Part shown: one piece after another, positions 27,404-39,987 of the stretch | Layout of the letters: every line of letters begins with the position of its first letter | Numbering within the stretch: position 1 is the stretch's first letter | Origin: Devosia sp. | GTDB taxonomy: Bacteria; Pseudomonadota; Alphaproteobacteria; Rhizobiales; Devosiaceae | Direction: 5' to 3' | Assembly (NCBI RefSeq): GCF_028290435.1 | Contig: NZ_JAQGJV010000009.1 | Coordinates: forward strand, 124,001-188,000 | DNA: 64,000 bases | Program-made: the position numbers and the translations under genes | The notes under the pieces: model-generated | What the model saw: the letters and a program-made list of their open reading frames with translations, nothing else | Databases searched by the model: none | What the model was told of the DNA's origin: nothing

Positions 27404-28360
27404 TCAGCCGTGGATCAGGAAGGCGGCGTCACCCACCAGCTTGCGGCGCACATAGGCGGAAATCTGGTCGACGATGATGATCGTGGTCAGCAGCAGGATG
27501 ATCAGTGCGATGGTCTTGGCGCCAAAGCCGCGCGAAATGGAAAGCTTCAGCTCCTCCCCGATACCGCCGCCGCCGACGGCGCCGATAATGGTGGAGGCGC
27601 GCACGTTGATCTCCAGCCGCAGCATCGCATAGGAGACGAAATTGGGCATGACCTGCGGCAGCGCGCCGAAGCGCACGCGCTCGATCCAGTTGGCGCCGAC
27701 GGCCTTGAGACCCTCATCGGGCTTCATGTCGATGTTTTCGATGACCTCGAAATAAAGCTTTCCGAGCGCGCCGATGGTGTGCAGGCCCACCGCGATAATG
27801 GCGGCGACAGGGCCAATGGAGAGCACGGCGGCGAACAAGCCGGCGATGACGATTTCGGGGAAGGCGCGCAGCACTTCCATGATGCGGCGAACGACCGAGC
27901 GCACGAGGAATGACGGCATCATGTTGCGTGCGGCGAGGAAACACAGAGCCAAGCCACCGGTGAAGCCCACAATGGTGGACACCATGGCGACGTTGATGGT
28001 GATCAGCATCAGGTAGAAATATTCGGGCAGGTAGAAGCCGGCGCCGAGATCGACCCGGCCCTCGGGGAAGTTGAATTCCTGGGTGCCGTTATCGGCGGGA
28101 GTGGGCAGATCGAACAGCGCACGGGGAACATCCATCCAGTCGTGCGGGATCAGCCAGGAGAGAAAATCGAACAGATGGGGCAGCCGCTCCATGAAGTGGC
28201 CGGCATTGCTTTCGTCAGCGAAAATCAGCGACCAGACCAGAGCCAGAGCCAGGCCGCCAAAGCCGAGGAGGGAATAGAGTCGTCGCTGCCGCGCCAGATG
28301 GCGCCAGGCTAAATCGACGGTGCGGACGGCCTCGGAGGCGGATGGAGCGAGCGCGGTCAT
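27404..28360 (-). CDS. phnE: Phosphonate ABC transporter permease, short form
   Basis: 318 residues from ATG 28360; an upstream start is open but lacks support. Membrane helices at about 30-48 and through 120-310; the permease signature is HTIGALGKLYFEVIENIDMK and STIIGAVGGGGIGEELKLSI. With the longer paralogue it forms the inner-membrane channel for phosphonates. It lies about 60 nt after phnD. Confidence 0.9.
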   Translation of the reverse strand: MTALAPSASEAVRTVDLAWRHLARQRRLYSLLGFGGLALALVWSLIFADESNAGHFMERLPHLFDFLSWLIPHDWMDVPRALFDLPTPADNGTQEFNFPEGRVDLGAGFYLPEYFYLMLITINVAMVSTIVGFTGGLALCFLAARNMMPSFLVRSVVRRIMEVLRAFPEIVIAGLFAAVLSIGPVAAIIAVGLHTIGALGKLYFEVIENIDMKPDEGLKAVGANWIERVRFGALPQVMPNFVSYAMLRLEINVRASTIIGAVGGGGIGEELKLSISRGFGAKTIALIILLLTTIIIVDQISAYVRRKLVGDAAFLIHG

Positions 28361-28422
28361 GGAGCAATGTCCCGATAGACGAAGGGCACCAGCCAACCTG
28401 GCCGGTGCCCCTCAAGGCTAAA

Positions 28423-29340
28423 TTAGCCGCCGATAGTGGCTTTGCGGATGTCGATGATGGGCTGGTAGAATTCAGCCTTGACCGGGACGTAACCCTTGAA
28501 GTCGCCGCCTTCGATAGCCGAGAAGCAAGCCGCGTCTTCGGTGGGCAGGTTCAGGTAGAAGTCGGTGATCTTCTTGATTGAGTCAGCGCCAAGGGCGTTG
28601 CGAACGACGGTCGGGCCGTTCGGGATCAGCGGCGAGCGCCAGACTTCGACGAAATCTGCGGGATCGACGGCGCCCTTGTCGACGAGCTTGCGGAAGGTGC
28701 CCGAGGTGTAGCCGTCTGCGAACTCGCCGATACCCGAGGAGTCGTCGACCGAGACGTCCGACTTGCCATCGAGCAGGGCCAGGACGTTGTTTTCGTGGCC
28801 GCCGTTGAAATCGGCCGACGCGAAGAATTCCTTGTTCGGGACGCCAGTGGTAACCGGGATCTGGGTCAGCGGGACGAGGTAGCCCGAGGTCGAGTCGGGA
28901 TCAGCATAGCCGAGCTTCTTGCCCTTGGCAGACATGATGTCGGTGATGCCCGAGGACTTGAGGGCCAGGCCGATCGAGTAGTAACCGGTCGAACCGTCTT
29001 CCTGCTGGGTGGTCAGCACGGGGGTCACGGCATCGGGATTTTCAATGGCGATGGCCGCATAGCCCGAAGCGCCGAGGCCGGCAACGTCGAGGGTGCCGCC
29101 GAGGAGGCCCTGGATCACGCCATCATAGTCAGCAGCGGGGAACAGCGAGACCTTCTCGAAGCCTAGATCGGTCTTGAGGTGATCGGCGAGGCACGCGTAA
29201 TTGCGCAGGCGGTCGGCTTCGTTTTCGCCGCCTAGGATGCCGATACGGAGTTCCTTTGGCATTTCCTGAGCAAAGGTAGCGACAGCGCCGTTACCGAGAG
29301 CGACGAGCGCGACAGCGCCCATGAGCATAGATTTCAGCAT
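28423..29340 (-). CDS. phnD: Phosphonate ABC transporter substrate-binding protein
   Basis: 305 residues from ATG 29340 behind AGGAG; signal peptide about 1-24 (GAVALVALGNGAVATFAQE). The mature part has ELRIGILGGENEADRLRNYA, the PhnD start, DVAGLGASGYAAIAIENPDA and KKLGYADPDSTSGYLVPLTQ, lining the phosphonate pocket. It delivers phosphonates to PhnE1E2 with PhnC as ATPase. The open frame continues upstream, but only into unlikely sequence. Confidence 0.93.
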   Translation of the reverse strand: MLKSMLMGAVALVALGNGAVATFAQEMPKELRIGILGGENEADRLRNYACLADHLKTDLGFEKVSLFPAADYDGVIQGLLGGTLDVAGLGASGYAAIAIENPDAVTPVLTTQQEDGSTGYYSIGLALKSSGITDIMSAKGKKLGYADPDSTSGYLVPLTQIPVTTGVPNKEFFASADFNGGHENNVLALLDGKSDVSVDDSSGIGEFADGYTSGTFRKLVDKGAVDPADFVEVWRSPLIPNGPTVVRNALGADSIKKITDFYLNLPTEDAACFSAIEGGDFKGYVPVKAEFYQPIIDIRKATIGG

Positions 29341-29365
29341 GGTTTTCTCCTGGGTCTGAGATCCG

Positions 29366-29384
29366 CCCCGCTTTTGCCGCGGGG
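29366..29384 (-). other. Hairpin between phnC and phnD
   Basis: CCCCGC and GCGGGG pair around a 7-nt loop in the 65-nt gap between the phnC stop and the phnD start. In such operons, a hairpin just before the binding-protein gene often protects its mRNA so that more binding protein than ATPase is made. That role is inferred here. Confidence 0.45.
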
Positions 29385-29405
29385 TTGGATGGGGTGCGCA
29401 CAACT

Positions 29406-30242
<837 letters not shown>

Positions 30243-30370
30243 CCCTGCCCTCCGGTGTTGAGCCGGGGGATGCGTACGGGGTGCAGATAAACCTGCGATG
30301 TCGGTTGGGTGACAGAACGATGACGATGCACCGTCGGTTTCGTGAGCGCCTCCGAGGCAGCGGCCCCGTC

Positions 30371-30494
30371 GTCCCCTCCCCCTTGAGGGGAGGGCTAGGG
30401 TGGGGGGAAGCCGAAGCGGGAGTGAAGTCTGGTGGGGCGTGGTATGCGGAGAGCTCCCCCCACCCCTAACCCCTCCCCTCAAGGGGGAGGGGGA
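30371..30494. repeat. Large interspersed inverted repeat inside the phn operon
   Basis: A left arm 30371-30408 (starts GTCCCCTCCCCCTTGAGGGG) and right arm 30451-30494 (ends CTCAAGGGGGAGGGGGAC) are complementary over about 35-40 nt with few mismatches, around a 42-nt centre. C/G-rich repeats of this CCCTCCCCCTTGAGGGG type are dispersed between genes in many Hyphomicrobiales. It lies in the 269-nt gap between the acetyltransferase and phnC, and could act as a strong RNA hairpin that splits the phn operon. Confidence 0.7.
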
Positions 30495-30511: not shown

Positions 30512-31126
30512 TTAGCCCTCGTACTTGTCGAGGAAAGCTTCGGTCGACAGCGACCGGAAATCCTGCAGCCCCAGCCGCAAGCGGTCATGATCCCAGTCCC
30601 ACCATGCCAGCGCATCCAGCCGGCTGGCGATCAGATCGGTGAAACGCTGCTTGATGGCCTTGGCCGGCACGCCAACGGCAATGGCGAAGGCGGCAACATC
30701 TTTCGTCACCACGGCATTGGAGCCGATGATGGCGCCGTTGCCGATGGTGACGCCGGGCATGATCACCGCACCGTGGCCGATCCAGGTATCGTGGCCGATG
30801 GTGATGGGGGTGCTGGCGCGCCAGTCGAAGAAGGATTGGTCATCCTCGGCACCATCGAAATACCAGGACGAGCGATAGGTGAAGTGATGCAGGGACGCGC
30901 GTTCCATTGGATGCATGCTGGCATAGATGCGCACGTGGCTGGCGATATTGGCGAACTTGCCGATGGTGGAATAGGCGATCTGGGTGCCTTCGACGCAGTA
31001 TGAATAGTCGCCGAGAGTCGAATGATTGATGTGGCTGCCGGCACCGACTTCGGTATAGCGGCCGAGCGTCGAGTTCTTGACGCTGGCCGTGGGATGGATG
31101 GTGGGCGTTTCGCAGAGCTTGGTCAT
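30512..31126 (-). CDS. Phosphonate-cluster hexapeptide-repeat acetyltransferase
   Basis: 204 residues of left-handed beta-helix: repeated hexapeptides such as [18 protein letters not shown] and [19 protein letters not shown], then [27 protein letters not shown]. The insert with [17 protein letters not shown] is typical of the phosphonate-metabolism transferases in C-P lyase operons (TIGR03308 type). The substrate is not established; acetylation of aminophosphonates has been proposed for other acetyltransferases in phn operons. Its start overlaps the phnL stop (ATGA). Confidence 0.88.
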
Positions 31127-31824
31127 GCGGCGATCCTCGGCGCAAAAGCGGTGACGTCGACGATGCGATCGGCGACTTGCGTGCGGACATCCTCATCGTG
31201 GAAGATGCCGAGCAGGGCGGTGCCGGCGGCTTTTTTCTCGGCGATCATGGAGACGACGACGGCGCGATTGGTGGCGTCGAGCGAGGCTGTGGGTTCGTCG
31301 AGCAGCAGCACCTTATGATCGGTGATGAAGCCGCGGGCGATGTTGACGCGCTGCTGCTCGCCGCCCGAGAAGGTGGCGGGTGGCAGGCTCCATAGCCGTT
31401 CGGGCAGGTTGAGCTGCGCCAGGAGCGTTCGGGCGCGATCCTGCGCCTCGGCCTTGTCGGCGCCGCGGATGACAAGTGGTTCGGCGACCACGTCGAGCGC
31501 CGAAACGCGGGGGACGGTGCGCAGGAACTGGCTCACATAGGCGATGGTGTCGCGGCGCAGCGTCAGTACCAGGCGGGGATCGGCGGTAGCGAGATCGATG
31601 TCGGCCCCGTCATGAGTGAGCCAGATATGGCCTGCATCGACGCCGTAATTGCCATAGACCATCTTGAGGATGGAGCTTTTGCCGGCGCCCGAGGGGCCAC
31701 CTAGCACGACGCATTCGCCGGCGGCGACCTCGAAATCGACGTTGTCGACGACAGGGAGGACGACGCCATCGCGCAGGTGCATGGTGAAGGTCTTGGCGAG
31801 AGATTGGACGCGGAGAGGGGTCAC
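31123..31824 (-). CDS. phnL: C-P lyase complex protein PhnL
   Basis: 233 residues from GTG 31824. ABC-ATPase fold: Walker A VLGGPSGAGKSSILKMVYG (about 35-53), signature FSGGEQQRVNIARGF, Walker B VLLLDEPTASLD, AIFHD-like switch in GIFHDEDV. PhnL binds the C-P lyase core complex with PhnK and is needed for phosphonate breakdown rather than transport. It starts 1 nt after phnK. Confidence 0.93.
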   Translation of the reverse strand: MTPLRVQSLAKTFTMHLRDGVVLPVVDNVDFEVAAGECVVLGGPSGAGKSSILKMVYGNYGVDAGHIWLTHDGADIDLATADPRLVLTLRRDTIAYVSQFLRTVPRVSALDVVAEPLVIRGADKAEAQDRARTLLAQLNLPERLWSLPPATFSGGEQQRVNIARGFITDHKVLLLDEPTASLDATNRAVVVSMIAEKKAAGTALLGIFHDEDVRTQVADRIVDVTAFAPRIAA

Positions 31825-31825
31825 A

Positions 31826-32602
31826 TCACACCTGCAGGATCGAGGAAACGAGAAGCTGGGTATAGGGCTCGCGGGGATCGTCGAGGACGCGATCGGTGAG
31901 GCCGGATTCGATGACGCGGCCGTCCTTCATCACCATCATGCGGTGGGAAAGGAGACGCGCCACCGCCAGATCGTGGGTGACGATGACGGCGGCGAGGCCG
32001 AGTTCACCGACGAGGCCCCGCAGCAGATCGAGGAGGCGCGCCTGCACCGAAACGTCGAGGCCACCGGTCGGCTCGTCCATGAAGACGAGGCGCGGGGAGG
32101 TGACGAGATTGCGGGCGATCTGCAGGCGTTGGCGCATGCCGCCCGAGAAGGAGCGCGGCTGGTCGTCGACGCGGTCTTCGTTGATCTCGACGCGGCCGAG
32201 CCAATCGACGGCGCTGGCGCGGATATTGCCGTAGTGGCGATCGCCGATGGCCATCAGGCGTTCGCCCACATTGGCGCCGGCCGAGACGGTCATGCGCAGT
32301 CCGTCGGCGGGGTTCTGGTGCACAAAACCCCAATCGGTGCGCATAAGGAAGCGGCGCTCGGCTTCGCTGAGGTCATAGATATTGCGCCACACATCGTCGC
32401 GCATGCGGTATTCGGCGCGGCCCGAAGTGGGTTCGAGATTGGTCGAGAGGCAATTGAGCAAAGTGGTTTTGCCCGAGCCGCTTTCGCCCACCACGGCGAG
32501 GACTTCGCCGGGGTAGAGCTCGAAATTGACATCGGTGCAGCCGAGGCGAGCGCCGTAATACTTGGAGAGATTGGAAACGCGCAGCAGGGGGCTATCGGTC
32601 AT
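31826..32602 (-). CDS. phnK: C-P lyase complex ATPase PhnK
   Basis: 258 residues from ATG 32602, which overlaps the phnJ stop. Walker A VVGESGSGKTTLLNCLSTNL, YRMRDDVWRNIYDLSEAERR and DWGFVHQNPADGLRMTVSAG (PhnK-specific), signature FSGGMRQRLQIARNLV, Walker B VFMDEPTGGLDVS. PhnK docks on PhnJ of the core complex and couples ATP use to the reaction. The open frame runs further upstream inside phnJ, where no start fits. Confidence 0.94.
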   Translation of the reverse strand: MTDSPLLRVSNLSKYYGARLGCTDVNFELYPGEVLAVVGESGSGKTTLLNCLSTNLEPTSGRAEYRMRDDVWRNIYDLSEAERRFLMRTDWGFVHQNPADGLRMTVSAGANVGERLMAIGDRHYGNIRASAVDWLGRVEINEDRVDDQPRSFSGGMRQRLQIARNLVTSPRLVFMDEPTGGLDVSVQARLLDLLRGLVGELGLAAVIVTHDLAVARLLSHRMMVMKDGRVIESGLTDRVLDDPREPYTQLLVSSILQV

Positions 32603-33480
32603 TCGGCGGCCTCCAAAACTTCGCCGCTGAGGGCACCACGATGGCCAGCGGCGCGGCGGTCTTCGCAATTGTCGGTGTCGGAACAGACGAACATGTGGCC
32701 GCCGTGGTCATCGAGAATAACCTCGTCGAGATAGACGCCAGTGGCGGCGCAGAGCGCACAGGGCTCGCTGAAGTGCTGAATTTCGAAGGGATGATCTTCG
32801 AAGTCGAGGCTGACGACCTTGGTGAAGGGCGGCACGGCATAGATGCGCATTTCGCGGCCGGCGCCGAAGAGTTGCAGCGCGGCGGACATGTGCATCTTGG
32901 GATTGTCGAATTTCGGCGTCGGCGAGGGGGACATGACGTAGCGGTCTTCGACCATGACAGGGTAGCCATAGGTGGTGGCGATGCGGCCGTGGGTGGCGAT
33001 GTCCTCGTAGAGCTTGACGTGCATCAGGCCGTATTCCTTGAGCGCGTGCATGACGCGAGTCTCGGTTTCGCGCGGCTCCAGCAGGCGCAGGGGTTCGGGG
33101 ATCGGCACTTGATAGACCAGGGTCTGGCCGGCCTGAAGCTGCTTTTCGGGAATGCGATGGCGGGTCTGGATGATGGTCGCATCGCCCGTATGCGTCGTCG
33201 TCTTCACATTGGCGACCTTGGCGAAGAAGGCGCGGATGGAGACTGCGTTGGTGGTGTCGTCGGCGCCCTGGTCGATGACCTTGAGCACGTCAGTGGGGCC
33301 GACGATGGCCGCCGTCACCTGCACGCCGCCGGTGCCCCAGCCATAAGGCATGGGCATTTCGCGGCTGGCGAAAGGCACCTGATAGCCGGGGATGGCGATG
33401 GCCTTGAGGATGGCGCGGCGGATCATCCGCTTGGTCTGTTCGTCGAGATAGGCGAAGTTATAGCTGGGGGTGGCGCTCAT
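32599..33480 (-). CDS. phnJ: C-P lyase, radical SAM subunit PhnJ
   Basis: 293 residues. The iron-sulfur and catalytic cysteines fall at Cys241, Cys244, Cys266 and Cys272 (CALC...CSDTDNC), the same positions as in E. coli PhnJ, and the glycyl-radical site is Gly32 (PGYQVPFASREMP). PhnJ cleaves the carbon-phosphorus bond of ribose-1-phosphonate-5-phosphate, giving an alkane and the cyclic phosphate. It starts inside the phnI stop (ATGA) and ends in the phnK start, so translation of the core is coupled. Confidence 0.96.
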   Translation of the reverse strand: MSATPSYNFAYLDEQTKRMIRRAILKAIAIPGYQVPFASREMPMPYGWGTGGVQVTAAIVGPTDVLKVIDQGADDTTNAVSIRAFFAKVANVKTTTHTGDATIIQTRHRIPEKQLQAGQTLVYQVPIPEPLRLLEPRETETRVMHALKEYGLMHVKLYEDIATHGRIATTYGYPVMVEDRYVMSPSPTPKFDNPKMHMSAALQLFGAGREMRIYAVPPFTKVVSLDFEDHPFEIQHFSEPCALCAATGVYLDEVILDDHGGHMFVCSDTDNCEDRRAAGHRGALSGEVLEAAE

Positions 33481-34577
33481 TCGGCGGCCTCCTGGACAGA
33501 ATTTTCGGCGGCGTGCTTGGCGTGCATGGTGCGGATCATGTCGAGTTCGGCCTGGAAATCGACATAGTGCGGCAGCTTCAAATGCTCGACGAAGCCGGTG
33601 GACTGCACGTTGTCGAGGTGGGAGATGACGAATTCCTCGTCCTGCGCCGGGGCGGTGATGTCCTCGCCCAGCTCGCGGGCGCGGAGAGCCCGGTCGCAGA
33701 GGGACATCGACATGGCCTTGCGTTCGGACTGGCCGAAAACCAGGCCATAGCCGCGGGTGAACTGGGGCGGCACTTTGGACGAGCCCTTGAACTGGTTGAC
33801 CATCTGGCACTCGGTGACGCGGACGCGGCCGAGGCTGACGGGGAAACCAAGCTCGGGAATATCGAGTTCGACCTCGACTTCGCCGATGCGGATTTCGCCC
33901 ACGAAGGGGTGCGAGCGGGCGTAGCCGCGCTGGGTGGAATAGCCGAGCGCGAGGAGAAAGCCTTCGTCGCCACGGGCGAGCGCTTGCAGGCGCAGATCGC
34001 GGTCGAGCGGGTATTGCAGCGGCTCGCGGGTGAGGTCGCCGACCTCATCCTGGGGGACATGGTTGAAGCCGAGATCGGGCTCCATCAGGCCCTGATGGCC
34101 GAGCATGTCGGTGACGCGCGGGGCGCGATCATGATCGGCCTCGGCGGTCAGTGGCTCGGCGACGTCGTTACCTTGCGCAATCGAGGGATCGAGCAGGCGA
34201 TGGGTGTAGTCGAAGGTGGGGCCAAGCAATTGGCCGCCAGGAAGGTCCTTGAAGGTCGCGGAAATGCGGCGCTCGATCAGCATATCGGCAGTATCGATGG
34301 GGCGTGAATAGCCGAAGCGGGGCAAGGTGGTGCGATAGGCGCGGACGAGGAAGATGGCCTCGATCAGGTCGCCGCGCGATTGCAGGATGGCGAGGGCGGC
34401 CAGTTCACGGTCGTAGAGCGAGCCCTCGGCCATGCAGCGATCGACGGCGAGGCCGAGCTGTTCGATGATCTGTTCGGTGCGCAAAGCCGGCACCGAGCGG
34501 TCGCCACGGCGGCGGTCGGCGAGCAGAGCGTGGGCATTGGCGATGGCAGCTTCCCCGCCTTTGACGGCAACGTACAT
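33477..34577 (-). CDS. phnI: C-P lyase core subunit PhnI
   Basis: 366 residues opening MYVAVKGGEAAIANAHALL, with RSVPALRTEQIIEQLGLAVD, ELAALAILQSRGDLIEAIFL, RISATFKDLPGGQLLGPTFD and YTHRLLD, standard PhnI. With PhnG, PhnH and PhnL it transfers the phosphonate to the C1 of ribose from ATP, releasing adenine. It lies 3 nt after phnH and overlaps phnJ. Confidence 0.95.
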   Translation of the reverse strand: MYVAVKGGEAAIANAHALLADRRRGDRSVPALRTEQIIEQLGLAVDRCMAEGSLYDRELAALAILQSRGDLIEAIFLVRAYRTTLPRFGYSRPIDTADMLIERRISATFKDLPGGQLLGPTFDYTHRLLDPSIAQGNDVAEPLTAEADHDRAPRVTDMLGHQGLMEPDLGFNHVPQDEVGDLTREPLQYPLDRDLRLQALARGDEGFLLALGYSTQRGYARSHPFVGEIRIGEVEVELDIPELGFPVSLGRVRVTECQMVNQFKGSSKVPPQFTRGYGLVFGQSERKAMSMSLCDRALRARELGEDITAPAQDEEFVISHLDNVQSTGFVEHLKLPHYVDFQAELDMIRTMHAKHAAENSVQEAAE

Positions 34578-34580
34578 GGG

Positions 34581-35171
34581 TCAGGCCTCCTTGATACGAG
34601 TGGTACGGGGCAGGCCGATCAACTGGCCATCGGCAACGAGCAGCAGGTCGACGCCACGCGGGAACTGCGCCCCGTTCTCGGCCCATTGGGCGAGGAAATC
34701 TTCGGGCAGGCCCTGGGGCGCGATGGTGATTGAACCCTCGATACCGGGGCCGGTCAGCGTCAGGGTTTTGCCGCCGGAGACCGATTGGATGGCCAGGGCC
34801 ACGGTGGTGGAGCGGTCCGGATAGAGGTCGGTGCCCTGGTCGAAATCGGCCAGCAGGACGGCCGGATCGCGGGTGAGGGCGAATTGGGCCTGGGCGCGCT
34901 CGGAGGTGATCGGGGCGCTGGTGTGGAAGCGCAACCAGCCGAGAACGGCGTCAGTGGCGAGATCGCGATCCAGCCAGAGGGTGGTGTCGTGATCGCACAG
35001 GGTCAGCGCGATGGCGGCGAGTTCGGGCGACAGCGACGACGGCGGGGTGAGACCGAGGGTCAGTGCCTGCACGGTGCCTGGATTGGCAAGGCTATCCATG
35101 ACGGCACGGAATGCGGTCTGGGATTGCATGACGGGATCGGCGAAGCCGCCGTCCAGGGTATTGGTGTCCAT
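34581..35171 (-). CDS. phnH: C-P lyase core subunit PhnH
   Basis: 196 residues from ATG 35171, overlapping the phnG stop (TGATG). The N-terminus has GGFADPVMQSQTAFRAVMDS and LANPG; later RGVDLLLVADGQLIGLPRTT. PhnH is a core subunit with PhnG, PhnI and PhnJ. Length matches the family (about 195). Confidence 0.94.
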   Translation of the reverse strand: MDTNTLDGGFADPVMQSQTAFRAVMDSLANPGTVQALTLGLTPPSSLSPELAAIALTLCDHDTTLWLDRDLATDAVLGWLRFHTSAPITSERAQAQFALTRDPAVLLADFDQGTDLYPDRSTTVALAIQSVSGGKTLTLTGPGIEGSITIAPQGLPEDFLAQWAENGAQFPRGVDLLLVADGQLIGLPRTTRIKEA

Positions 35172-35626
35172 CAATTATCTCCCCGGACCATGGTGAAGAA
35201 GTTGACCTTGGTGGCGGCGGTTTCCTGTTTGCGCTTGAGGTCGGCGGCGGTGGCGCCGGCGCGCAGCGGGGTCAGGATTTGGGCTTCGACCGTGGCCGGA
35301 TCGCGCTGGAACAGGGCGTCGAACACGGCGATCAGGCGCGCCTTGTCGAGATCGCGGCCAAGGCAATAGCCATGGCCGATCTCGCCGCTGTCGAGCCGCA
35401 CGGTAGCGCGGCTGACGCTGGCTTCGCCGAGGTTGAACGGGGCACCGCCACCCCCTGCCCTGCCGCGCACCATGACGAGGCCGGTTTCGGGACCACGGAC
35501 GGGTTTGAAGTCGGGCTTGTCGGCCCAGTTGGACCAGGCGGCGGCGAGAGCTTCGGCGTCAGCGGCGGCCAGGGCATTGAGCGCCAGGCGGCGCGGATCG
35601 GTATCGGAAACGGGTTGCACGGTCAT
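35171..35626 (-). CDS. phnG: C-P lyase core subunit PhnG
   Basis: 151 residues, with RGPETGLVMVRGRAGGGGAP, FNLGEASVSRATVRLDSGEI, GHGYCLGRDLDKARLIAVFD and C-terminal ETAATKVNFFTMVRGD, all PhnG. It is the first gene of the leftward phn operon, divergent from phnF, with a palindromic site 16-35 nt ahead of its start. Confidence 0.94.
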   Translation of the reverse strand: MTVQPVSDTDPRRLALNALAAADAEALAAAWSNWADKPDFKPVRGPETGLVMVRGRAGGGGAPFNLGEASVSRATVRLDSGEIGHGYCLGRDLDKARLIAVFDALFQRDPATVEAQILTPLRAGATAADLKRKQETAATKVNFFTMVRGDN

Positions 35627-35705: not shown

Positions 35706-36443
35706 ATGACAAAAGTGACGGCGACTTCAGATTCCCATTTGAGTGGGGTCGCGATCTGGCGGCGGATCGCCGACGCGGTCCGGCTGGACATTGTCGGCGG
35801 CAAGCTGGCGCGGGGCGACAAGCTGGCTGGGGAGATGGAGCTGGCCGAACGGTTCGGGGCCAACCGGCACACAGTGCGGCGGGCCTTGCAGGCGCTGGCG
35901 GCGGAGGGGGTGATCCGCACCGAGCAGGGGCGGGGCAGCTTTGTGGATTCCGCCAAGCGGCTGAGCTATCCCATCGGCCGGCGGACGCGGTTTTCCGAAG
36001 GGCTGGCCGGACAGGCGAGCGAATTGCGCCGACAGGTATTGGGGACGCGGCTGGAGAATGCCAGCGCCAGCGTGGCGGCGGCACTCGGGCTGGTCAGCGG
36101 CGCCAAGGTGACGCGGCTCGATACGGTGTCGCTGGCCGATGGGCGGCCGATATCGCGGGCCACGAGCTGGGTGGTGTATCGCGATTTTCCAGATTTTGCG
36201 GCGCGGTTTGCGGGGGAGCAATCGACCACGGCGGTGTTCGCGGGGCTGGGCGTTTCCGACTATGTGCGGGCGAGTACGCGGATTTCGGCGCGGCATGCCG
36301 ATGCCGAGGAGACGGCGCTGTTGAAGCTGGCGCCGGGGGCGATATTGCTGGTGTCCGAAGGGGTGGACGCCGATGTGAACGGGCGGCCGATATTGTATGG
36401 GCTGAGCCGGTTTCCGGCGGATTTGATGGAGCTGGTGGTTTGA
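35706..36443 (+). CDS. phnF: GntR/HutC-family phosphonate regulator PhnF
   Basis: 245 residues. GntR winged helix at about 15-80 (GVAIWRRIADAVRLDIVGGK, LAERFGANRHTVRRALQALA, AEGVIRTEQGRGSFV) and a HutC/UTRA effector domain after about 95 (FSEGLAGQASELRRQVLGTR, DTVSLADGRPISRATSWVVY). It probably represses phnG and the rest until a phosphonate-derived ligand binds. Divergent from phnG, convergent with phnN. Confidence 0.92.
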   Translation: MTKVTATSDSHLSGVAIWRRIADAVRLDIVGGKLARGDKLAGEMELAERFGANRHTVRRALQALAAEGVIRTEQGRGSFVDSAKRLSYPIGRRTRFSEGLAGQASELRRQVLGTRLENASASVAAALGLVSGAKVTRLDTVSLADGRPISRATSWVVYRDFPDFAARFAGEQSTTAVFAGLGVSDYVRASTRISARHADAEETALLKLAPGAILLVSEGVDADVNGRPILYGLSRFPADLMELVV

Positions 36444-36450
36444 GGAACTT

Positions 36451-36472
36451 CACCTCTCCCTAGGGGGAGGTG
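36451..36472. terminator. Hairpin between phnF and phnN
   Basis: A near-perfect palindrome (CACCTCTCCC, TA, GGGGGAGGTG) directly after the phnF stop and before the convergent phnN stop. It fits a shared terminator and belongs to the same C/G-rich repeat style as the element near 30.4 kb. Confidence 0.5.
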
Positions 36473-36488
36473 CAGGGAGGCCCACCTA

Positions 36489-37064
36489 TCAGACCCTTGC
36501 GGGCCAGACCTGGCGCTGGGCGGCTTCTGTGAGGATATCCACCAGGCGTTCGCCTGCCAGCACCAGCGGGCCGGAATTGTCGAGGCGCACTGTGGTCGGG
36601 CCAAGCGCGTCCGCGTCGACCATGCGGGCGAGGCGGGCGGTGATGGCGGTTGCGTCTTCGCGGCCGCGGGCGGCGAGGCGGCTGGCGATGATGTCGGGGG
36701 TGGCGGAGAGCGCGACCACGGTGGTGCGCGCATAGCGGCGCTCGATTTCGGCGACGATCTGGCGCGAGACATTGGCGATGACCACGCGGCCCGCATCGAT
36801 ATCGGCATCGATGGAGGCAGGCAGGCCATAGCGCAGGCCGTGGGCGGGCCAGGCCAGCGCAAAGCCGCCGGAGCGTTCCAGCGTGGCGAATTCGGCTTCG
36901 CCCAGGCTGTCATGGTCCTCGCTCTTGCGATCGGCGGGGCGGGTGACGACGCGGCGGACGAAGACGAATTCGGCCCGGTCGGCAAGCCGCTCGCGGGCGA
37001 AATTGATCAGCGTGTCCTTGCCGGAACCGCTGGGGCCGACAATGGCGACGAAAACCCCACTCAT
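36489..37064 (-). CDS. phnN: Ribose 1,5-bisphosphokinase PhnN
   Basis: 191 residues; P-loop VAIVGPSGSGKDTLINFARE (about 6-25), RRVVTRPADRKSEDHDSLGE and WPAHGLRYGLPASI are PhnN hallmarks. It phosphorylates ribose 1,5-bisphosphate to PRPP, the last step recycling ribose after C-P cleavage. Its ATG overlaps the phnM stop (ATGA). Confidence 0.94.
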   Translation of the reverse strand: MSGVFVAIVGPSGSGKDTLINFARERLADRAEFVFVRRVVTRPADRKSEDHDSLGEAEFATLERSGGFALAWPAHGLRYGLPASIDADIDAGRVVIANVSRQIVAEIERRYARTTVVALSATPDIIASRLAARGREDATAITARLARMVDADALGPTTVRLDNSGPLVLAGERLVDILTEAAQRQVWPARV

Positions 37065-38203
37065 ATGACGCGCTGGCCTTCGCGCCAGACGGTGCGCACG
37101 ATCGGGATGCCGTCGCTGAGCCGGACGCGCACAAGGTCGGCGCGCTTGCCGGCGGCAATCTCGCCGCGATCGTCGAGACCGCCAGCGGTCGCCGGGTGCT
37201 TGGTGACGAGGCGGACGGCGTGGGGCAGCGAGATGGAATCCACCGAGTCGCCCAGCGTGAAGGCGGCCTGGATCAGGCTGAAGGGGATGTAATCGGAGGA
37301 CAGGATATCGAGAATGCCTGCTTCGGCCAGGGTGCGGGCGGAGACATTGCCGGAATGGGAGGAGCCGCGCACAACGTTTGGCGCCCCCATCAGCACGGCG
37401 AGGCCGGCATCGTGGGAGGCGCGAGCGGCTTCGATGGTGGTGGGGAACTCGGCGACGTCGATGCCCTGGGCGATGGCTTCATCGACATGGCCCAAAGTGG
37501 CGTCGTCGTGGCTAGCCAGCACGATGCCGTTGTCGCGGCAGAAGGCGGCGATGGCGGCGCGGTGGGGACCCGCATAGGTTTCGGAATCGTGGGTGCGGCG
37601 GGCGGAGAATTCGGCCAGCGCGGCGTCGCTCATCTTGAGCTTGCCTTGATAGTAGATCTTGTAGGCGTCGAAGCTGGCGAACTGGCGCTGGTTGGGCGCG
37701 TGGTCCATCAGCGAGGCCAGGCGCACCAGCGGATCGTGCTGCAGGGCGGTGAAGTTTTCGAGGCAATCGGGCGCCGAGACTTCGCAGCGCAGGTGGATGA
37801 AATGATCAGCGCGCAGCCGGTTGGCGGCCTTGCCCGCGGTGATCGCCTCGGCCAGCACCCGCATTTCGGCGCTGCCCATATCGGCCTGCTCATCGGTGCC
37901 AACGCGCAGGGCATCGAACACCGTGGTGATACCGGAGGCGGCGACCTGAGCGTCATGCGCCTGCACCGAAGCGATGGGGTTCCAGCGCACGCGGGGGCGC
38001 GGCGCATAGTGGTTTTCCAGATGATCGGTATGCAGTTCGACGAGGCCCGGAATGATGTAATCGCCATCCATGTCCTCCCCGGTGGCGGAGCTGTCGCCGA
38101 TTTCGACGATTTTTCCGTCCCGCAGGACGATGGAGCCGGTGATGACGTCGTCGGCTAGGACAATGCGGGCATTGGTGAGGACGGTTTCGGCGGTATGGGT
38201 CAT
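37061..38203 (-). CDS. phnM: Alkylphosphonate ribose triphosphate diphosphatase PhnM
   Basis: 380 residues, amidohydrolase fold. Metal motif ELHTDHLENH (His58, His61), then GITTVFDALRVG, IVLASHDDATLGHVDEAIAQ, EFPTTIEAARASHDAG and SDYIPFSLIQAAF. It removes diphosphate from ribose-1-phosphonate-5-triphosphate before PhnJ acts. It starts 4 nt after the DUF1045 gene. Confidence 0.95.
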   Translation of the reverse strand: MTHTAETVLTNARIVLADDVITGSIVLRDGKIVEIGDSSATGEDMDGDYIIPGLVELHTDHLENHYAPRPRVRWNPIASVQAHDAQVAASGITTVFDALRVGTDEQADMGSAEMRVLAEAITAGKAANRLRADHFIHLRCEVSAPDCLENFTALQHDPLVRLASLMDHAPNQRQFASFDAYKIYYQGKLKMSDAALAEFSARRTHDSETYAGPHRAAIAAFCRDNGIVLASHDDATLGHVDEAIAQGIDVAEFPTTIEAARASHDAGLAVLMGAPNVVRGSSHSGNVSARTLAEAGILDILSSDYIPFSLIQAAFTLGDSVDSISLPHAVRLVTKHPATAGGLDDRGEIAAGKRADLVRVRLSDGIPIVRTVWREGQRVI

Positions 38204-38207
38204 GGGA

Positions 38208-38912
38208 TCAGGCAGTCTTGCGTTGGTGTTGGGCGGTGAAGCGGTGGATGGAATCGATCAGGAAGGGCGCATTAGGCTCCGGTTCGACGAACAGCGCTAC
38301 CTGGGAAATGCAGAGCGGCTCATCCGCAAGGGGGCCAAAATGGCGGTGCAGCATTTGGGCGACATAGTCGCGCTCCAGCTCGTCGATAGGACCGGTCAGG
38401 GTCATGTGGAAGCGGAACTGGTCCAGCACATAGGGATGGCCCCAGGCCATCAGGTTGGCAAACTGGCGGCCATTGAGGCGGCCGATATCCCCGCGCGCCA
38501 GATCGAGATCGGAGGTGGGGCTGCGGTATTGGTCGAAGACGGTGACGAAATCGGTCGCGAGTTCATGCAGTTCGGGGTTCGGCTCGGTGGGAACCAGCGC
38601 AAAAAAGTTTTCGATCAGGACGATGCGCATGGCGTCAACCGTGATGGGCGGGACGCGGCGGCAGAACTTGGCGAGCGCTGCCTGCACATCGCTCAGCCCA
38701 TGCTCGGTGGCGATGCGGAACGGCGCCTTGAGCGAGCCGTGAAAGCCAATGCGGCGGGGCGCGGCGGTGAGGAAAGCATGGTCGGTTTCCACCAGGCCCT
38801 CGACCGGCCAGGCGATGCGCGCGCCCGTATAGGGGTCGCGCCGCAGCCACCGCGCGGCCGCGATCGTCAAGGCATCGTCGGCCGGCGGGGTGAAACAGAT
38901 GGCGCAGCGCAT
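38208..38912 (-). CDS. DUF1045 phosphonate-cluster protein, 2H phosphoesterase type
   Basis: 234 residues of a family found only near C-P lyase genes (DUF1045, TIGR03223). Two His-x-Ser/Thr motifs, HGSLK (58-62) and HMTLT (169-173), are the catalytic pair of 2H phosphoesterases, which open cyclic phosphates. The window has no phnP, the metallo-hydrolase that opens 5-phosphoribosyl 1,2-cyclic phosphate, the product of PhnJ. It is therefore a candidate replacement, made with PhnM and PhnN on one mRNA. That function is inference from motifs and context. Confidence 0.85.
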   Translation of the reverse strand: MRCAICFTPPADDALTIAAARWLRRDPYTGARIAWPVEGLVETDHAFLTAAPRRIGFHGSLKAPFRIATEHGLSDVQAALAKFCRRVPPITVDAMRIVLIENFFALVPTEPNPELHELATDFVTVFDQYRSPTSDLDLARGDIGRLNGRQFANLMAWGHPYVLDQFRFHMTLTGPIDELERDYVAQMLHRHFGPLADEPLCISQVALFVEPEPNAPFLIDSIHRFTAQHQRKTA

Positions 38913-39096
38913 GGGGGCGTCCGTTGAGTCGATCCGCAGGCGCTAGTTGATTTATGTGACAGTAGAGCGAATTGGCCGTCTCTCCTGCCACCCGGCAGAT
39001 GAAAGGGCGATGAACGCGGCGCTCAGGCAACATGAAGGCTGCCCCCATTAGCAAGGCGGCCAAGCGGTGATCACGCCGCATTCATGGAGAATTCAA
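38913..39096. promoter_or_regulatory. Promoter region of the phnM operon and the first secreted protein gene
   Basis: A 184-nt divergent gap. On the minus strand, CTGTCACATAAAT (about 38949-38961) resembles one half of a Pho box, which would fit phosphate control of the phn genes, but the second half is poor. Nothing firmer was seen. Confidence 0.3.
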
Positions 39097-39465
39097 ATGA
39101 AACTGTCCCGTCGCGTCGCCCTCGGCGCCACTCTTGCCGCAATGGTTCTGACCGGTGCTTCGAGCGCTTTCGCCGCCGATAGCGATATGGTGCTGTTCAA
39201 GGTCGTCACCACCGACAAAGACGATGTCATCATCGGGCTGACCGAGAGCCAGTTGGCGGCAGCGGGCGGTCTCGATGCCGGCACCGTTGGCAAGATGCTG
39301 GTGGCGAGCGGCGAACTGGCGGCCTGGCAGTATGTCGTGGCACACAATGATGCCGGGGACCTCGTGGAAGCTCCGACCAACAAGATCAGCATCATTGCCA
39401 ATGCGGCCGTGCGCATCGAGCCCTACCAGGCCGAATGGCCGGTGACGCTGCCGACCGCCGAATAG
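39097..39465 (+). CDS. Secreted small protein, unknown function
   Basis: 122 residues from ATG 39097 (GGAG 8 nt ahead). Signal peptide about 1-26 (RRVALGATLAAMVLTGASSA, cut after FAA). The mature protein is acidic, without cysteines (MVLFKVVTTDKDDVIIGLTE, LAAWQYVVAHND, AVRIEPYQAEWPVTLPTAE). No family recognised. A strong hairpin separates it from a second secreted protein gene. Confidence 0.7.
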   Translation: MKLSRRVALGATLAAMVLTGASSAFAADSDMVLFKVVTTDKDDVIIGLTESQLAAAGGLDAGTVGKMLVASGELAAWQYVVAHNDAGDLVEAPTNKISIIANAAVRIEPYQAEWPVTLPTAE

Positions 39466-39475
39466 CCGATCGGGA

Positions 39476-39505
39476 CGGGAGCGCTGTCACATGACAGTGC
39501 TCCCG
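39476..39505 (+). terminator. 14-bp hairpin between two secreted-protein genes
   Basis: CGGGAGCGCTGTCA and TGACAGTGCTCCCG pair with one G-T step around CA, just after the first stop and 27 nt before the next start. It could terminate, or regulate the level of the second gene. There is no T tract. Confidence 0.55.
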
Positions 39506-39531
39506 CTTGCGCCGAACCTTGGGAGATTTTC

Positions 39532-39987
39532 ATGCGCCTGCCCGTTCTCGCCAGCCTGATCGTCGTGCTTGGCGCCGCGCCGGCCTTTGCGAGCGGCGGC
39601 GTGTCCTGCAATTCTGGGGCGGGCCCGGCGCGGTTCGACCTGTCCGTCAGCATGGGACGCGATTTCGGAGCCGGAATATTGGACATCGCCGGCGAGCTGG
39701 TGGCACAGCTTCCGAACGTCGCCCCCGACCTGCGGCAATTGCATTTTGCGCGGGAGAATCCCAACCAGATATGGATCGACCGCGACGTGGTGTATTTCGA
39801 AATCTCGGTGCCGCACCGGGGCGACGGGCCTTACGGCTATGCCGACCTGACGATCAAGACCCAGGCGGTCGACGAAGGCAGCTATGTGGGCACTTATATC
39901 TTGGACATTTACGACGTCGGCGTGGAAGTGAACGGCGTGCCGCAGAGCATCACGGTGAATGGCGTCGTCAGTTGCACGACGGATTAG
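39532..39987 (+). CDS. Secreted protein, unknown function
   Basis: 151 residues from ATG 39532 (GGGAG ahead). Signal peptide about 1-20 (RLPVLASLIVVLGAAPAFA). The mature part has only two cysteines, near the two ends (GVSCN, VVSCTTD), which could form one bridge closing the domain. The sequence looks like an all-beta fold (VVYFEISVPHRG, YADLTIKTQ). No family recognised. Confidence 0.75.
   Translation: MRLPVLASLIVVLGAAPAFASGGVSCNSGAGPARFDLSVSMGRDFGAGILDIAGELVAQLPNVAPDLRQLHFARENPNQIWIDRDVVYFEISVPHRGDGPYGYADLTIKTQAVDEGSYVGTYILDIYDVGVEVNGVPQSITVNGVVSCTTD

Follow-up and report, generated by a model that had tools for sequence, protein, structure and literature searches.

Background

In E. coli, the known enzyme for the step of the C-P lyase pathway that acts on 5-phosphoribosyl 1,2-cyclic phosphate (PRcP) is PhnP, a metal-dependent metallo-beta-lactamase protein. 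The idea that another protein replaces PhnP in some bacteria is already known, and has been in print since 2013 at the latest: PMC3840354 describes a 2H protein, there called 'RcsF', as likely to fill the PhnP role. The same paper reports a Rhodobacteraceae fosmid, B3_TF_MPn_2, which carries a 2H gene and no phnP, and rescues an E. coli delta-phnHIJKLMNOP strain on methylphosphonate, a growth result which shows only that the whole cluster suffices. Later accounts follow the same line. A SEED survey of 54 operons, citing Podzelinska 2009, found PhnP in 27 and rcsF in 16 lacking PhnP (PMC10574752, 2023); PMC8235418 (2021) follows Hove-Jensen 2014 in presenting DUF1045 as a putative phosphoribosyl cyclic phosphodiesterase; the PhnP analogy is repeated in PMC5649143, and a DUF1045 protein is listed as raised in a phosphorus-stress table in PMC10132767. 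From these published descriptions 'RcsF' and DUF1045 appear to be one family, and the gene studied here shares with them the phnM/phnN neighbourhood, the absence of phnP and the proposed reaction. No enzyme assay of a DUF1045 protein was found in the literature searched, a scope into which subscription papers mostly did not fall; settling a reaction proposed since 2013 could give DUF1045 a functional name, in a class of bacteria that includes rhizobia and marine methylphosphonate users.

To this picture the present analysis adds a counted exclusion between DUF1045 and PhnP, a metal-less PhnP found beside DUF1045, a second DUF1045-phnM-phnN triad in the host genome and the oddness of the DUF1045 copy from which the analysis started. 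The gene probably encodes a metal-independent 2H phosphoesterase that replaces PhnP in the C-P lyase pathway, a replacement that the earlier note had proposed; the genome-wide absence of phnP, the exclusion seen in the survey and the metal-less PhnP in a DUF1045 operon all support this reading.

The phn cluster and its DUF1045 gene

The window, i.e. the whole stretch of 64,000 nucleotides that was analysed, contains the phn cluster reported in Table 1. Curated NCBIfam cut-offs are passed by PhnG, H, K, L, M, N and F, and Pfam cut-offs by PhnI and PhnJ, while no phnP was seen in the cluster: the earlier description of a locus holding phnGHIJKLMN and lacking phnP is thus borne out. The listed phnJ frame begins too early, its domain starting from residue 116, and the real start of phnC probably lies near residue 81 of the listed frame. 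A putative hexapeptide-repeat transferase, such as the one found here between phnL and phnC, is mentioned in marine phn clusters in PMC3840354.

Table 1. Positions of the phn genes, the 2H motifs and the phnP-like frames discussed in the text
Feature	Position	Strand	Basis
DUF1045 (PF06299) 2H phosphoesterase, proposed PRcP phosphodiesterase	38208..38912	-	Pfam, NCBIfam, model
First 2H motif, H58-G59-S60 (Thr in nearly all relatives)	38733..38741	-	sequence, alignments
Second 2H motif, H169-M170-T171	38400..38408	-	sequence, alignments
phnM, 5-triphosphate diphosphatase	37061..38203	-	NF011983 627 bits, TIGR02318 478 bits, both above cut-off
phnN, ribose 1,5-bisphosphokinase	36489..37064	-	TIGR02322 210 bits, cut-off 156
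phnF, GntR/UTRA regulator	35706..36443	+	TIGR02325 273 bits, cut-off 157
phnG	35171..35626	-	Pfam, NCBIfam
phnH	34581..35174	-	Pfam, NCBIfam
phnI	33477..34577	-	PF05861 542 bits
phnJ, C-P lyase radical subunit	32599..33810	-	PF06007 480 bits
phnK	31826..32668	-	TIGR02323 402 bits
phnL	31123..31824	-	TIGR02324 334 bits
Hexapeptide-repeat transferase	30512..31126	-	PF00132
phnC, transporter ATPase	29406..30482	-	TIGR02315 324 bits
phnD, phosphonate-binding protein	28423..29610	-	TIGR03431 281 bits
phnE-type permease	27404..28396	-	PF00528
phnP-like frame (G822, G940)	L249 and L250 1498-2235		

The DUF1045 gene encodes a product of 234 aa, which matches PF06299 with 177 bits (E 2.7e-52), well over the gathering score of 24.3. 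Against TIGR03223 (Phn_opern_protn, a hypothetical equivalog) it scores 229 bits, below the cut-off of 248.95, and the PhnP model, TIGR03307, is not among its NCBIfam matches. The two HxS/T motifs that define the 2H superfamily, attributed to this protein beforehand, are both present, as HGS at residues 58-60 and HMT at 169-171.

The stop codon of DUF1045 is separated by a 4-nt gap from the phnM ATG (38203), and phnM in turn shares 4 nt (ATGA) with phnN, a spacing that suggests co-transcription of the three genes. Upstream of DUF1045 no Pho box was matched at up to 3 mismatches, and a sigma-70 promoter scan of positions 36000-39600 found none. Pho-box-like matches across the window number 3, against 2.07 expected; two overlapping weak ones, at 30298-30326, lie 5' of the likely phnC start, and are not above window-wide chance. 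Fusions of DUF1045 with phnM or phnN are not evident, long open frames being taken as overlapping frames.

An AlphaFold2 model (pLDDT 91.5, pTM 0.87), for which the window protein was aligned to 57 named relatives, predicts the duplicated alpha/beta fold of 2H proteins. Such proteins head the Foldseek list of PDB structures, where a few mitoribosomal chains are interspersed: B. subtilis YjcG (2d4g) comes first, followed by Arabidopsis CPDase (matches 2-3 and 8-10), with E. coli LigT among the others; no solved DUF1045 structure was found by sequence. YjcG and LigT belong to the same superfamily as the window protein, and have putative or known roles in RNA 2',5' chemistry, as also indicated by the titles of the structures. 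The CPDase structures (1fsi, 1jh6, 1jh7) match with E values of 1.4e-5 to 6.4e-5 and TM scores of 0.65-0.70 by target length, but share just 10-11% identity with the window protein. This enzyme, which carries the same paired HxS/T motifs, acts on a similar bond: its substrate, ADP-ribose 1'',2''-cyclic phosphate (Appr>p), contains ADP-ribose rather than 5-phosphoribose, but its ribose bears the same 1,2-cyclic phosphate, which makes a 2H active site chemically apt for PRcP. E. coli PhnP shares with DUF1045 the proposed reaction and the neighbour phnN, but has an unrelated fold.

In the proposed pathway, PhnJ would release PRcP, the H58/S60 and H169/T171 pairs would hold and hydrolyse the cyclic phosphodiester, with the phosphate staying on O1 to give ribose 1,5-bisphosphate, and PhnN would convert the latter into PRPP. 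The conserved R2 and R130, which would be placed in the pocket, may, together with K62, grip the 5-phosphate or the cyclic phosphate. Substrate, regiochemistry and metal independence are what we infer for the window protein.

Search for phnP in the rest of the genome

A functional phnP elsewhere in the genome was the finding that, according to the earlier note, would have spoken against replacement. The host assembly is 99.99% complete, in 99 contigs, and when searched as a whole with TIGR03307 it produced a single match of 27 bits, the cut-off being 272. The match, on contig C63, is a protein of the metallo-beta-lactamase type; its HEHADH motif is intact, and its gene adjoins a TatD-like gene. 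Such a housekeeping-type relative of PhnP might itself open PRcP, leaving DUF1045 with some other role in the pathway, and in favour of this view the motif of the C63 protein is intact and one-piece, near full-length matches to the PhnP model below its cut-off are found, by eye, in 72 out of 113 PhnJ-positive genomes of the class. However, matches of this kind are also found, again by eye, in 36 of 74 PhnJ-negative ones, so that their association with C-P lyase is weak (Fisher p 0.05, uncorrected); none lies, by eye, within 30 kb of PhnJ, and the C63 protein covers the model in part only. We consider this explanation very unlikely.

DUF1045 and PhnP as alternatives

The survey was built on genomes positive for PhnJ. 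Among 385 genomes of the class of the window (Alphaproteobacteria), 65 were positive; 84 positives were found in 398 genomes of the phylum, 10 of them already counted and one, G414, dropped from the counts because its match, containing stops, fell below the cut-off; the class to which G605 belongs (Gammaproteobacteria broadly defined, as judged from named relatives) was sampled with 229 genomes and added 6 new positives out of 7. Of the resulting 144 PhnJ-positive genomes, 113 belong to the class of the window and 31 do not.

DUF1045 was found in 119 of the 144 and PhnP over cut-off in 22, never together, while three (G161 of the window's class, and G720 and G723 from outside it) have neither: in this survey, of the kind that the earlier note had suggested, the two are mutually exclusive and behave as alternatives. 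Within the class, DUF1045 is present in 112 of 113 genomes and PhnP over cut-off in none, so the exclusion is partly a clade effect. It also holds, however, among the 31 genomes from outside, where 7 have DUF1045, 22 PhnP, none both and two neither; the hypergeometric probability of no overlap there is 1.4e-5, uncorrected for kinship among relatives that are not independent. One of the 112, G259, has just a divergent DUF1045 of 50 bits, which also occurs in its PhnJ-negative kin G030 and G337, and should therefore not count for the hypothesis.

Further observations point to repeated exchange. A quick PhnM tree, which has 48 labelled rows out of 52 and covers part of the clusters, requires at least 3 switches between DUF1045 and PhnP. 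One family, f194, contains one genome of each kind (G605 and G713), and both kinds occur on Burkholderiales plasmids, with phnN-phnP in Methylibium PM1 and phnF-DUF1045-phnN in Variovorax PBL-E5. A plasmid collection yielded 146 records with a DUF1045 query and 36 with an intact PhnP query, 21 of the latter being at least 40% identical to the query across 74% or more of its length; among the matches listed, which cover 60 of the 146 DUF1045 records, none appears for both queries. PhnP fragments on plasmids of Pacificitalea and Arcobacter were set aside as stray, the annotation showing no phn genes in their vicinity.

For 21 of the 22 genomes with PhnP, the distance to PhnJ is, by eye, about 5 kb or less. 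In the three genomes with neither gene, either the step proceeds by another route or the pathway is broken. G723 lacks phnP, while its congener G539 has it between phnN and phnC. The phn cluster of G161, a small genome, is without phnN, phnP and DUF1045, and contains a calcineurin-like phosphoesterase gene (L005 5161-6012), ending about 1 nt from the phnG start, which is possibly a third solution to the step.

Divergent second C-P lyase clusters, with PhnJ scores of about 379-397 bits, were also encountered, namely L008 (G022), L079 (G691), L103 (G443) and L076 (G554). No DUF1045 or phnN is found near L008 and L079; G554 contains extra DUF1045 copies broken into pieces.

A metal-less PhnP beside DUF1045

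Two genomes of one genus, G822 and G940, from an order represented by 2 genomes in the surveyed collection, feature operons arranged as phnM-DUF1045-phnN-phnP-like; the cluster of G822 is complete, while that of G940 runs into a contig end. At 142 and 117 bits, the PhnP-like frames stay under the PhnP cut-off. Their products have lost HxHxDH, the histidine that precedes the HS serine, the DT aspartate and the NH histidine, all of which are kept by each of 10 intact PhnPs taken for comparison; N-terminal cysteines and C-terminal histidines are retained. Between the two genomes dN/dS is 0.47 for the PhnP-like frame, 0.42 for PhnN, 0.38 for DUF1045 and 0.20 for PhnM: the frame is still under constraint, comparable to that on PhnN.

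The only PhnP homologue seen inside a DUF1045-bearing phn operon has thus lost its catalytic residues. Where DUF1045 is present, replacement predicts that PhnP chemistry becomes dispensable, and this is what the two genomes display, although they amount to one evolutionary event. A metal-less PhnP beside DUF1045 was not met in the accessible parts of the literature examined.

Linkage to phn genes and copies without C-P lyase

Loci were fetched for 116 PhnJ-positive genomes, and in 101 of them the distance from a DUF1045 copy to a phn gene is 5.5 kb at most; the closest phn gene is mostly a same-strand phnM, or phnN. In the remaining 15 the fetched stretches hold unlinked copies only, some perhaps via contig breaks. 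Out of 80 named related loci, 67 are linked to phn genes; all are alphaproteobacterial by title, but for one titled 'Bacterium'. In the two clusters without phnN that were read, G161 and G259, a linked DUF1045 or PhnP is absent as well, as if phosphodiesterase and kinase came and went together, though two cases prove little.

DUF1045 over cut-off is found in 80 of the 385 class genomes, 16 of them PhnJ-negative. In 4 of these 16 it lies beside phnM without core genes (L145, L149, L152 and L153, in G040, G164, G247 and G262, respectively), loci that are either relics or indicative of another role; in the other 12 no phn gene is found in the fetched stretch, some being short contigs. The motifs are intact in those rows that aligned. 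These copies may have been left behind when C-P lyase was lost, may reflect incomplete assemblies or may point to another substrate. The family could, in principle, act on a different ribose cyclic phosphate, such as the Appr>p of RNA repair, its placement among phn genes being secondary, and both the 12 genomes with no phn gene in view and the fact that the best characterised fold match of the DUF1045 model acts on Appr>p would agree with this. Against it stands the distribution in the class, where 64 of 65 PhnJ-positive genomes have DUF1045 versus 16 of 320 PhnJ-negative ones (Fisher p 1.8e-56, uncorrected); moreover, no RNA-repair families were found among 10 genes flanking PhnJ-negative copies, 4 of which matched nothing. 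We regard this other role as improbable and, at the level of the family, replacement of PhnP as very likely.

A second triad and the divergence of the window copy

For the exact copy in the window we are somewhat less sure. The host genome contains a second DUF1045-phnM-phnN triad, located outside the window, on the same contig and about 50 kb off (C33:108816-111208). Its genes each pass a curated NCBIfam cut-off, with DUF1045, at 108816-109511, scoring 253.9 bits to TIGR03223, above the threshold that the window copy fails to reach. A second phnG-H-I-J run is cut by the end of contig C48 (L003 5333-8047), and the genome probably has two C-P lyase systems.

Conservation was assessed on 224 aligned DUF1045 proteins, pieces shorter than 180 aa (the fragmented copies in G554, for instance) being excluded from alignment, column counts and tree; columns conserved in 93% or more of the proteins were taken as near-invariant. 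The window copy is substituted at 5 out of 20 such columns (Y6C, G24R, Y55I, T60S and Y159H), the highest number among the 224, gaps not counted, against none in the second copy of the same genome. It keeps both catalytic histidines, Ser/Thr at 60 and 171, R2, K62, P64 and R130. Three rows (L021, L023 and L147) were misaligned in one alignment and show intact motifs in another. In a tree of 217 of the 224 rows, 7 short, misaligned or divergent ones having been left out, the window row has a long branch, of 0.97, and falls among rhizobial copies, some linked and others unlinked, with no finer placement. Relative to the published 'RcsF'/DUF1045 systems, both the divergence at near-invariant sites and the second triad set this locus apart, neither being mentioned in the accessible portions of those accounts.

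The window copy might accordingly be a duplicated paralogue, drifting or re-purposed, with the canonical DUF1045 of the second triad as the working PRcP phosphodiesterase. The contrast of five changes with none is in line with this, as are the position of the second copy in a triad of its own and its TIGR03223 score; changes at Y6, T60 and Y159 in other copies, besides, occur mostly in unlinked paralogues, some of which lack the catalytic Thr or His. On the other side, all the residues listed above as kept are retained, and the gene sits in a complete cluster, tightly spaced with phnM and phnN. We hold this possibility to be unlikely, though less so than the other alternatives considered, and replacement of PhnP by the window gene stays the preferred reading; the PRcP job may, however, be shared with, or mainly done by, the more canonical copy.

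A more speculative scheme, which we find rather doubtful, would combine several of these observations: the module was duplicated, the five changes at near-invariant sites adapted the window enzyme to some other cyclic ribosyl phosphate, the canonical copy kept PRcP and, more widely, PhnP can survive as a non-catalytic partner where DUF1045 took over, as in G822 and G940.

Six unlinked paralogues (L106, L113, L135 and L196-L198) either lack the catalytic Thr or carry H169Q, and, on the basis of these residues, are probably no longer enzymes of this kind; L196-L198 come from Agrobacterium and Rhizobium rhizogenes.
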